This document shows, piece by piece, positions 46,393 to 61,334 of a DNA stretch of 64,000 bases. Source of the stretch: Corynebacterium spheniscorum (GTDB lineage: Bacteria; Actinomycetota; Actinomycetes; Mycobacteriales; Mycobacteriaceae); contig NZ_FOPJ01000005.1 in assembly GCF_900113445.1 (NCBI RefSeq), forward strand, positions 62,001-126,000, written 5' to 3'. The notes beneath the pieces were generated by a model, which ran no database searches, was not told the origin of the DNA, and was given only the letters and a program-made list of their open reading frames with translations. Every line of letters begins with the position of its first letter. Position 1 is the stretch's first letter. Both the position numbers and the translations under genes were made by a program.

Positions 46393-49220
<2,828 letters not shown>

Positions 49221-52195: not shown

Positions 52196-53215
52196 CTAAA
52201 GGTCGCCTGCGTCTCGATACAGCATCGAAGCAATGCGGCTTAGCCGACGGTAGATTGCGGCTTGGCCCGAGTAGTGGGCAGCAGCCGGGGCGTGGTGCAC
52301 GTCAATACCTTCGGTGAGCACTTCCCGGGATAATCCGAGTTCATCAACGAGCCGCGCAATTTCTGTGGCTGCGGTGCGATCAGCATCTTCATCATCAATG
52401 GCGGCTAGATCCAATCCGAGCCCTACCCTTAAGTCTGGGATGCTCAGCGCGCGGGCGAGATTATCTAAATCGTGGTGCGTGCGCAGTTGATCTAAGGACA
52501 GCTGAACTGTATCTGCTTCGGAGATACCCACACCGGCGTGAAAGAGCAGCTCCCATAAGACGGGTTGCCCGCAGAGATTCAGCATCACCGAGGCACAATG
52601 TTCTTCGGCGCGTAGCTTCTCTGCGATCCTGCCAATCAGCTGCGCTAGGTCTTCTTGGCGAATGGGGGGAAGCTCATCAAAATCAGTGGTGCCGCGGATC
52701 CGGCCGGCTGCGATCTGGGCGATCAACGGTTCATCTATTTGCACATGGATCGCTGGGTCTTCAAAACGGCGGGCAAGTTCAGCACAATGCTGGGCAATCC
52801 CATCGGCAAGAGCTTCACTTAGATCCCGGCGCGCCCCCGCATCGCTTAACACCAAGTGCCCATTAGTCACCTCGATGCTGACCGCTAAACTCCAGGGCCC
52901 CATAACTTGGGTTTTTAAGCTAGGAAGCCTTGTTCCCCAGGTTTCCTCGCAGGCATCCAGGTCAGCTTCTAGCAGGTCCCAGCTTCGGCGAGTAAGCAGT
53001 TGGGGGCGATCACGTAAGACCCAGGCGCGTGGCCCGCGGTCAATGCTGAGGTGGCGTATTATCGCTGCGCTTCGGCCCACCGCATCCGCGCCGAGGCCGC
53101 GTTCGCTGAGCTGCGGCAGGTGCGGGAAATCGGGGGTTTCCCCGGTGATGATATCGGCGGCTAGGTGAATATCGGTGCCGGGGAATTCACCAATCCCATA
53201 GGCCCGCACACTCAT
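52196..53215 (-). CDS. MetE-fold protein without zinc ligands (Rv3015c-like)
   Basis: 339-residue member of the cobalamin-independent methionine synthase superfamily. [25 protein letters not shown] and a C-terminal barrel strand ([14 protein letters not shown]) support the fold. Classical MetE has His-x-Cys and distal Cys/Glu zinc ligands; here the equivalent stretch reads VMLNLCGQP with Asn in place of His, and no distal Cys is present, so ordinary methyl transfer is unlikely. Starts within the last 4 bp of mnmA (translational coupling). A homologue lies near ligA in mycobacteria. Function unknown. Confidence 0.75.
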
Positions 53216-54312
53216 TCTTGGCTGCTTCTTCCGGTGGCATTAATGGTGCCTGAGCCCACCACAATATCGCCGAGGTCATCATCGGCTGGAAGGTAGAGCA
53301 CCGCGGCTTGGCCTGGGGCCACGCCTTCAAGCGGCTGGTGTAGCTCCAGGGTTAAAGAATCTGCCGCACGGTCCACGGTGGCATGGCAGGGTGCTAACCC
53401 ACCATGGGCACGTACCTGCACGGTGCACTCAAATTCTCCATCCATAGCTGGGTGTAAATACTTCAGGCGATCAGCATGAATGCGGGTAACAGCCAGGTGT
53501 TCGCGCGGGCCCACGGTAACAGTGCCGCAGGTGGGGTCCACCGCGGTGACATAACGGGGGCGGCCATCTTTAGCAGGGGTTTTAATATCCAGACCTTTGC
53601 GCTGACCAATGGTGTAGCCAAAGACATCGGTGTCTTCTTTCAGCACGGTGCCTTCGGCGTCTTTGACTACCCCAGGGCGCACCCCAATGGTGCGGCCTAA
53701 AAAAGCGCGGGTATCCCCATCGGGGATGAAGCAAATGTCATAGGAGTCTGGTTTATTAGCCACCGGGAACCCATGGCGGGCGGCTTCCTCGCGGATCTGC
53801 GGCTTGGGAGTATCCCCCACCGGGAAAAGGCAATGGTCTAATTCATGGCGGCCGAGTACCCCCAGCACATAGGACTGATCCTTCTTCGGATCCTCGGCGC
53901 GGCGGAGGTGGCCTTCATCATCAATCCGGGCGTAGTGTCCGGTGACAACCGCATCAAAACCTAAGGCGATGCCGCGTTCCAAAAGGGCGGCGAACTTAAT
54001 GCGCTCATTGCAGCGCAGGCAGGGGTTGGGGGTTTCACCACGGGCATAGGAGTCCATGAAGTCGCCGATGACTTCGCGGCCGAAGCGTTCGGAGAAATCC
54101 CACACATAAAAGGGGATGCCGAGGATATCGCAGACGCGGCGGGCATCCGCGGAGTCTTCTAATGAGCAGCAGCCGCGGGAGGATTCCCGCACTGCGGCGG
54201 GGTCCTTCGATAGTGCAAGGTGCACGCCAATAACGTCGTGGCCGGCTTCAACTGCACGGGCTGCAGCTACGGCTGAATCCACTCCGCCGCTCATGGCCGC
54301 AATCACGCGCAT
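53212..54312 (-). CDS. mnmA: tRNA-specific 2-thiouridylase
   Basis: Thiolates U34 of Lys, Glu and Gln tRNAs using ATP and persulphide sulphur. 366 residues. P-loop [10 protein letters not shown] near residue 6, first catalytic Cys in [12 protein letters not shown], second in [12 protein letters not shown], and the C-terminal beta-barrel domain. ATG at 54312 has a strong AGGAAGGGAAG upstream. The cysteine desulfurase at 60.2 kb, on the same strand, may supply its sulphur. Confidence 0.97.
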
Positions 54313-60179: not shown

Positions 60180-61334
60180 TTAAGCCATACCTGCTGCGCG
60201 GGCTTGTTCCACAATGCCGGGAAGTACCGCCAACAACTGATCAACCTCAGCTTCGGTGGTGGTGCGCCCCAAACTAAAGCGTACTGCCCCCCGTGCATCT
60301 GCTTCACTTACCCCCATTGCTAAAAGCACATGGCTGGGGCGATTCACCCCTTGTGAGCAGGCCGAACCAGTTGAAGCAGCAATTCCTTGGGAATCGAGCA
60401 GCATAATCAAGCTATCGCCTTCAGCACCGCGGAAGCAGATATGCACATGCCCGGGAAGCCCCTCACCACTGTCACTATCAGCACTGATGGTGAGCACATC
60501 CGGGATGCTCGCCTGAATACCGTGCAAAAGCCGATCGCGAAGTACTCGGCGGGAAGCTGCTTCTTCTACTTGTTCGGCGCAGGCTTCTTCTAAAGCAGCC
60601 GCTAGGGCGGCGGCAGAGGCCACATCGGAGGTGCCGGGGCGCAGCCCACGTTCTTGGCCACCGCCGTGTAATACCGGTAAGGGGGCTGGGGAACGTTTGG
60701 CTAAAAGCACCCCAATTCCACGGGGACCACCGAATTTATGGGCGCTTAATGCCAAGGTGGTGGCACCCAATTCATGGAAATTCACGGGAATGTGGCCCAC
60801 TGCTTGGACGGCATCGATATGCACCGGCACACCATATTCTTGGCCCAGGGCGCATAATTCTTTGACCGGTTGGATTCGGCCAGTTTCATTATTGGCCATC
60901 ATGCAGGCAATAAGTGCAGTGTCTTCGGGGAGGTGTTCGGGCACCTCAATAACTCCACAATCTCGCGCTGTGAGGAAGTCGGTGCGGGCCCCCTCAGCCA
61001 TCAGGGTGCGCGCAGGTTCGAGCACTGCGGAATGCTCGATCTCGGAAAGCGCAATGCCGGGGCGTGGGGTGTCGCCTTGGCGTGCCCGCCATAGCCCCGT
61101 GAGCGCCAGATTATCGGCCTCGGTGCCACTACCTGTGAAAATAACCTCCATGCGGTCCGCGCCTAAGCAGGCGGCGATGCTATCGCGGGCATCTTCGAGG
61201 ACCTTGCGGGCGGCGCGTCCGGCGGCGTATTGCCCGCCGGGGTTCAGCAGTCCGCTGTGGTGGACCCAGGTGTCGCGCGCGATGTCGCGCATGGGGGTGG
61301 TGGCGGCGTGGTCGAGGTAAATCTGAGTGTCCAT
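60180..61334 (-). CDS. Cysteine desulfurase (NifS/IscS type)
   Basis: PLP enzyme removing sulphur from cysteine for tRNA thiolation or Fe-S clusters. 384 residues. PLP-binding Lys in LSAHKFGGPRG, substrate His in EIEHSAVLEP, persulphide Cys in STGSACSQGVNRPSHVL with the long loop of class I. In M. tuberculosis the orthologous gene iscS lies next to mnmA and etfA; a role in MnmA sulphur supply is inferred. Lies 2 bp before etfA on the same strand. Confidence 0.95.
   Translation of the reverse strand: MDTQIYLDHAATTPMRDIARDTWVHHSGLLNPGGQYAAGRAARKVLEDARDSIAACLGADRMEVIFTGSGTEADNLALTGLWRARQGDTPRPGIALSEIEHSAVLEPARTLMAEGARTDFLTARDCGVIEVPEHLPEDTALIACMMANNETGRIQPVKELCALGQEYGVPVHIDAVQAVGHIPVNFHELGATTLALSAHKFGGPRGIGVLLAKRSPAPLPVLHGGGQERGLRPGTSDVASAAALAAALEEACAEQVEEAASRRVLRDRLLHGIQASIPDVLTISADSDSGEGLPGHVHICFRGAEGDSLIMLLDSQGIAASTGSACSQGVNRPSHVLLAMGVSEADARGAVRFSLGRTTTEAEVDQLLAVLPGIVEQARAAGMA

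Follow-up and report, generated by a model that had tools for sequence, protein, structure and literature searches.

A MetE-like gene of Corynebacterium spheniscorum that overlaps the end of mnmA encodes a protein that has lost the zinc site of methionine synthases, and in Corynebacterium this gene is under purifying selection. We studied it in a window comprising the whole 64,000-nucleotide stretch of DNA analyzed (contig NZ_FOPJ01000005.1, positions 62,001 to 126,000). Our proposal is that the protein is a MetE-like pseudoenzyme that binds a ligand or a macromolecular partner, most likely in the MnmA-dependent thiolation of tRNA U34. As a whole we give this reading about even chances, and its pseudoenzyme part is well supported. 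We infer all three elements of it, namely the loss of catalysis, the action by binding and the role in tRNA thiolation. Among the papers listed in our searches of the open-licence literature we found no description of zinc loss in MetE-like proteins of Corynebacterium.

A predicted single MetE-type barrel behind mnmA

An earlier note, made from the sequence of the window, had placed the open reading frame at 52196-53215 with a 4-bp overlap with mnmA, and both are exact, the shared ATGA lying at 53212-53215 (Table 1). The upstream gene is identified as mnmA by NF001138 (E 9.4e-115; 383 bits, with the cut-off at 284). Among named relatives, Corynebacterium records come nearest to the MetE-like protein. 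An RDAGDL-like tail (residues 334-339 of the window protein) closes many Corynebacterium copies; the shorter copies and the aligned zinc-keeping relatives do not have it.

Table 1. Features of the MetE-like gene and its neighbours in the window.
Feature	Position	Strand	Basis
Zinc-less MetE-like single-barrel protein, 339 aa	52196..53215	-	ORF from ATG to stop; AlphaFold2 model; homologues in 149/151 genomes of the genus
ATGA shared by the stop codon of mnmA and the start codon of the MetE-like gene	53212..53215	-	sequence
mnmA, tRNA 2-thiouridine(34) synthase, upstream gene	53212..54312	-	NF001138; start ATG assigned by eye
Codon 10, Glu where zinc-keeping relatives have Ser (position of MetE Ser433, in GxGS)	53186..53188	-	alignments
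QIDEP, residues 159-163; D161 corresponds to MetE Asp599	52727..52741	-	alignments
Codon 213, Asn replacing the zinc His (MetE His641)	52577..52579	-	alignments
Codon 215, Cys kept (MetE Cys643); Thr or gap in most other Corynebacterium rows	52571..52573	-	alignments
Codon 240, Ser, third ligand position; Asp in zinc-keeping relatives, MetE Glu665	52496..52498	-	alignments
Codon 310, Pro replacing the distal Cys (MetE Cys726)	52286..52288	-	alignments
ligA, usual next gene in other Actinobacteria	47055..49199	-	named by eye; downstream, same strand
Cysteine desulfurase-like gene, upstream of mnmA with other genes between	60180-61334	-	named by eye

Searched as a single protein, the window protein had no match in Pfam, NCBIfam or the PDB sequences (PDB at E 10), a search of the PDB sequences with two profiles (E 1) gave none either, and the protein by itself stays below the gathering cut-off of PF01717 (Meth_synt_2). 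In a PF01717 scan of its own genome only the MetE frame was found. Kinship with MetE follows instead from the predicted fold and from the relatives: PF01717 is matched by 48 of the 80 members of alignment A3 with E values no higher than 0.1, the best being 1.6e-63. The AlphaFold2 model consists of one barrel with a mean pLDDT of 94.9, and its best structural match is the core methionine synthase MesD (3rpd; Z 20.2 over 275 residues, rmsd 3.3), with MetE entries nearly tied through either of their two barrels (Z 17.7-19.9). The assignment to the MetE fold, for which structure prediction had been suggested as a check, is thus upheld in that a single barrel of the type found in core and full-length methionine synthases is predicted. 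With 339 residues and one barrel, the protein differs from full-length MetE, which has two barrels and about 754 positions. Structures of uroporphyrinogen decarboxylase (UROD) form the next family with Z 16.0-18.6 at sequence identities of 9-14%, and a UROD is the top Foldseek match of the model. A zinc-keeping mycobacterial relative was modeled with a pLDDT of 86.9 and matches the methionine synthases slightly better than the window protein (3rpd Z 23.0, MetE 22.5). The N-terminal half of full-length MetE also aligns well (3ppf residues 1-383, Z 19.9; 2nq5 residues 1-360, Z 19.7). That half is not known to carry zinc and is fused to the active barrel, whereas the window protein is separate and stands beside mnmA.

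By full-length homology, predicted fold, position behind mnmA and, usually, before ligA, the protein resembles the single-domain MetE homologues of the Rv3015c type. The window protein as query found the gene in 169 of 197 genomes across the class, and with profile A2 it was found in all 151 genomes sampled from the wider family. The order mnmA, MetE-like gene, ligA on one strand is also present in the window, where transporter-like, LysR-like and exonuclease-like genes (named by eye) intervene before ligA. The Rv3015c-type relatives, which we compared via those of Mycobacterium, mostly keep H-x-C, the Asp and the distal Cys, whereas the window protein has lost the His and the distal Cys. PMC4428469 calls the activity of the actinobacterial single-domain MetE homologues unclear.

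Loss of the zinc site

MetE binds its zinc through His641, Cys643, Glu665 and Cys726 and its homocysteine through Ser433, Glu484 and Asp599; in MesB the Glu665 position is Asp (PMC7857596). The window protein has N213, C215, S240 (or Asp, presumably D242, in another alignment) and P310 in place of the ligand set His641, Cys643, Glu/Asp665 and Cys726. The pair of homocysteine contacts is likewise incomplete, Ser433 being changed to E10 and Asp599 kept as D161, and Q35 is the candidate counterpart of Glu484, with Glu there in 36 of 38 non-Corynebacterium rows. The QIDEP motif (159-163), the Asn in place of the zinc His in LNLCGQP (212-218, N213) and the missing distal Cys (P310) had all been read correctly from the sequence; the retained second ligand C215 had gone unmentioned. 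Aligned with hhalign, the profile of the zinc-keeping relatives covers 283 columns of the MetE from the window protein's own genome and pairs IGSWPGT with IGSFPQT, FDEP with VDEP, LHSC with THLC, SVD with SIE and PACGLA with PDCGLK. The probability of this alignment is only 26% (E 0.0007), so the residue mapping to MetE leans on these motifs. The Corynebacterium profile aligned to the same MetE over only 48 columns, and in the other barrel.

As judged from this mapping, the zinc-keeping relatives appear to carry H-C-D-C together with the Ser and Asp that would hold homocysteine. L050, L031, L042 and others have a complete HCDC site of the core methionine synthase kind. The third-ligand Asp is present in 104 of 105 zinc-keeping entries; among Corynebacterium it is kept in 27 of 42 rows, or in 60 of 118 entries in another alignment. 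Conserved alternative metal ligands would have spoken against the earlier note, and we looked for them across the genus without finding any: in these alignments, the C-terminal half of the Corynebacterium copies has no conserved Cys or His, and in none of the 118 Corynebacterium entries does an H-x-C occur after residue 150. The His column does contain a His in 30 of these entries, but the Cys two residues further along is missing from them. The window copy nevertheless retains C215, and perhaps D242 or H307/H308, and may still have a metal site that is weak or has been rebuilt.

Such residues raise the question of whether the window protein is still a working core methionine synthase with Asn213, Cys215, D242 and H307 or H308 as substituted ligands. 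Asn is reported to be a rare zinc ligand, two MesB proteins have Asn at the Cys726 position (PMC7857596), and C215 is kept. However, the substitutes are not genus-wide (N213 in 11, H307 in 10 and C215 in 1 of 42 rows), the Ser433 and distal Cys positions are changed as well, and the genome has a MetE. We therefore regard this alternative as very unlikely. The full-length MetE lies on another contig, scores 911 bits over all 754 positions, slightly below the curated 929.95, and retains HLC and NPDCGLK; MetH was looked for in the same genome and not found. With an intact MetE elsewhere, methionine synthesis should not depend on the window protein, which also lacks residues for this reaction.

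The core methionine synthases MesA-MesD have the same single MetE-type barrel, and the Z score of MesD 3rpd, the nearest solved structure, is within 1 of that of MetE. By and large they keep the zinc and homocysteine residues (PMC7857596), whereas the window protein keeps Cys643 and Asp599, has other residues in place of Ser433, His641 and Cys726, and is ambiguous at the third ligand. A closer parallel, from a different phylum and likened here by its published description, are MesB-like proteins of Chloroflexales, which have the core MetE fold, have lost the zinc residues (FSHG, YCDQ, YREQ) and for which another function has been proposed (PMC7857596).

Distribution of the loss

In one alignment of 236 entries, the set of His, Cys and distal Cys is kept in 0 of 118 Corynebacterium entries, which include many repeats and the window gene twice and amount to 94 distinct sequences at 98%, and in 105 of 118 others. 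The set is absent from the other 13 non-Corynebacterium entries, one of which is truncated at the end of its contig. Among 40 genomes across actinobacterial families, whose loci were hand-picked from the listed matches to spread over families, 38 keep the three residues; the exceptions are L241, which lost the set, and L266, with a gap at the distal Cys. The Mycobacterium, Rhodococcus and Nocardia rows of a tree of MnmA also keep them. The earlier note had asked whether the loss is common to the whole Rv3015c-type group, and the answer is no, other Actinomycetia mostly keeping the ligands.

These counts describe an uneven sample, in which loci are mostly the best matches of each genome search and a scan of contigs gave at least 80 loci. 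Alignment A1 leaves out L001 (the window gene again) and L019 (a near-duplicate), A2 consists of 31 chosen rows, A3 leaves out L135 (233 aa), and A4 was composed of zinc-keeping rows, without the two from Haloechinothrix.

In the MnmA tree (131 loci, taken from 198 full-length MnmA rows), the ligand state changes at least 5 times, and in an independent tree of LigA, GatA and cysteine desulfurase (51 loci) at least 4 times, both trees being quick builds with some long branches and the method not distinguishing gain from loss. We read the changes as losses since the full site is widespread. The four changes fall on Corynebacterium together with g113, g114 and perhaps g116; on g128; on G069; and on one g121 genome whose very closely related sister keeps zinc. 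Haloechinothrix is a further case outside the 51-locus tree, its copy being 64% identical to a zinc-keeping one of Amycolatopsis and having P-D-R-G-R in the five columns. At least five separate losses of the zinc site are thereby suggested, which is a lower estimate, and the decay of the site probably predates the split of Corynebacterium from its nearest genera.

Two kinds of copies stand out. L221-L235 form a divergent Corynebacterium group in which D161 is mostly His (HEP) and the N-terminal third is rewritten; they mostly keep GPW, E115, H120 and D125. Some copies have a length of only about 281-285 residues (L018, L022-L024 and others like them), with gaps around strand 5 at the place of the first two ligands, so the complete barrel may not be needed.

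Selection and retained residues

The gene was found in 149 of 151 Corynebacterium genomes. We estimated dN/dS by the Nei-Gojobori method from non-overlapping pairs with dS of 0.08-1.3 only. The median for the MetE-like gene is 0.135 in Corynebacterium (20 pairs), 0.144 in the divergent Corynebacterium group (5 pairs) and 0.155 in other zinc-less copies (4 pairs), versus 0.221 in zinc-keeping copies (41 pairs). We do not read the lower Corynebacterium values as stronger selection, given that base composition and dS saturation may differ. For mnmA the medians of the same pairs, where available, are lower still (0.056, 0.051, 0.080 and 0.102 in the same order, from 13, 5, 4 and 27 pairs). The MetE-like gene of Corynebacterium is under purifying selection. 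A pseudogene was considered and rejected for this genus, its median dN/dS giving no sign of relaxed selection.

A decaying relic is likewise extremely unlikely, even though several functional residues have been lost, deletions around strand 5 occur in some species (281-aa copies), one in-frame stop is present in each of four Corynebacterium matches among the matches listed, and 2 of the 151 genomes are without a match. The single zinc-less g121 copy also has a dN/dS of 0.383 against its sister, with its neighbours at 0.05-0.13. Two other g121 pairs, however, are high too (0.403 and 0.524), the one with 0.403 being between two zinc-keeping copies. A median of about 0.14, near-universal retention and a fold predicted with high confidence do not agree with decay in Corynebacterium.

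We compared conservation between 47 non-redundant Corynebacterium and 71 zinc-keeping sequences. Nearly invariant in both sets are E26, D85, D87, G106, P107, E115, G119, D125, A128, E162, P163 and G171. S10, E35, H213, C215 and C310 are conserved only in the zinc-keeping set, as is D240, although Asp is the commonest Corynebacterium residue at this position as well (27 of the 42 rows). R63, W65 and W93 are conserved mainly in Corynebacterium. From residues 5-175 to residues 205-339, mean conservation falls from 0.651 to 0.408 in Corynebacterium and from 0.713 to 0.516 in the zinc-keeping set; the C-terminal half is more variable in both, somewhat more so where zinc was lost. In the model, several of the kept residues are placed directly after strands 1, 3 and 4 and hence at the barrel mouth, which suggests that they form a retained putative binding site.

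The window protein would thus belong to a branch without zinc in an actinobacterial family of single-barrel MetE-like proteins, most of which otherwise have what looks like a complete metal site. In this branch the mouth of the barrel would have decayed in its zinc-thiolate half, where strands 5, 6 and 8 exit, and would have kept the half formed by the exits of strands 1, 3 and 4, with GxGxxPG, GPW, E115/H120/D125 and D/E-P. A mouth altered in this way should not activate a thiol for methyl transfer, and the binding of a ligand or partner is more likely. Counting against strict retention of the site, D161 is mostly His in the most divergent Corynebacterium copies.

Conservation by itself would not separate binding from a metal-free reaction. 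E115, H120, D125, D161 and E162, at the exits of strands 3-4, could form an active site that works without metal or with another metal, in which case the protein would still be an enzyme with a different reaction. Several of these residues lie at the mouth by strand position and are nearly invariant, and UROD follows MetE closely in the structural comparison. UROD is a related barrel that is not known to use zinc. No new conserved Cys or His has appeared in the C-terminal half across the genus, though, and D161 changes in the divergent group. In addition, the retained residues are about equally conserved in the zinc-keeping relatives and so need not be a new active site. We consider another reaction rather unlikely.

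Genomic neighbourhood

mnmA lies upstream on the same strand at 91 of 94 distinct Corynebacterium loci, at 12 of 12 other zinc-less loci (the truncated L053 is excluded from the zinc-less lists) and at 73 of 92 zinc-keeping loci. It is within 100 bp at 73, 11 and 49 of these, and the 4-bp overlap is found at 30 of the 94 Corynebacterium loci, gap lengths depending on start codons chosen by script. Loci with long flanks allowed a comparison with other neighbour genes, for which the stretches searched differ in length. At the 44 Corynebacterium loci of this kind, mnmA was found 44 times, ligA 32 times and a cysteine desulfurase gene 7 times, with mnmA alone at 11 loci. The corresponding counts are 9, 8 and 9 at 9 other zinc-less loci and 28, 31 and 28 at 38 zinc-keeping loci. 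The mnmA junction in Corynebacterium outlasts the other neighbours, as expected of a working pair, and the co-occurrence that had been put forward for checking is real and stable.

Given this position behind mnmA, the partner process would most likely be the MnmA-dependent 2-thiolation of tRNA U34, and the ATGA overlap would allow MnmA and the MetE-like protein to be made in step. In Mycobacterium tuberculosis, iscS and trmU (mnmA) are described as an operon pair whose protein products associate (PMC10848736). The same organism requires MnmA for the U34 thiolation signal, and the enzymes that usually modify s2U further have no apparent homologues in it (PMC10531406).

Alternatively, the mnmA neighbourhood could be inherited gene order only, with the MetE-like protein serving an unrelated process, for example one-carbon or thiol sensing. 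The order mnmA, MetE-like gene, ligA extends across many actinobacterial families: in the 40 cross-family genomes mnmA is upstream in 35 and ligA downstream on the same strand in 36. Moreover, the 4-kb flank contains no mnmA at 10 of the 38 zinc-keeping loci with long flanks (8 from Pseudonocardiaceae-type genera and 2 from Mycobacterium), so an adjacent mnmA is not obligatory. The evolutionary rates also show no coupling with MnmA. Median MnmA/LigA distance ratios are 0.81-0.93 in the zinc-less groups, 0.937 in the zinc-keeping relatives and 0.789 in outgroups, and the MetE-like/LigA ratios are 1.65-2.67 in the zinc-less groups versus 1.98, somewhat faster in most of them. An acceleration of MnmA together with the loss of zinc had been hinted at by long MnmA branches, but was gone with LigA and GatA as controls. 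On the other hand, inherited order does not account well for the persistence of mnmA over ligA and cysteine desulfurase in Corynebacterium (44/44 against 32 and 7) or for the recurrence of the overlap (30/94). We hold inherited order to be a real possibility, somewhat short of even chances.

Among the side cases, the zinc-less copies of Haloechinothrix (L162, L183) start 89 bp after mnmA. The best matches of these mnmA genes among the compared loci are MnmA of Mycobacteriales (66-69%), and at eight loci from related genera, among them Amycolatopsis and Actinokineospora, the 4 kb upstream contain no mnmA. The Haloechinothrix mnmA may therefore have been transferred in beside a resident MetE-like gene.

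Implications

The earlier note had suggested a role linked to tRNA thiolation or sulphur handling rather than methionine synthesis. The second part of this claim stands, in that a methionine synthase is very unlikely with the His641, Cys726 and Ser433 positions replaced and an intact MetE in the genome. The first part has its basis in gene order; in zinc-less lineages MnmA shows no change of rate. We thus keep to a pseudoenzyme that acts by binding, with a link to MnmA that the gene neighbourhood suggests. A bolder version, which we think improbable, is that the MetE-like barrel is a dedicated component of U34 thiolation in actinobacteria, docking on MnmA or thiolated tRNA via the conserved half of its mouth; zinc-keeping copies would handle a thiol or persulphide by their metal, and zinc-less copies would only dock. 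If this were true, the protein could be, or could assist, the missing factor that gives rise to the s2U derivatives of Actinobacteria.

The family is often annotated as MetE homologue (PMC4428469). Such an annotation is misleading where the defining residues are lost, which concerns the whole genus Corynebacterium and, independently, several other lineages. Loss of zinc under continued selection, in Corynebacterium at least, suggests that the essential property of the family is not zinc chemistry. The repeated losses amount to a natural experiment, in which an activity common to zinc-keeping and zinc-less copies would be the core function of the family, and mnmA is the first place to look for it.
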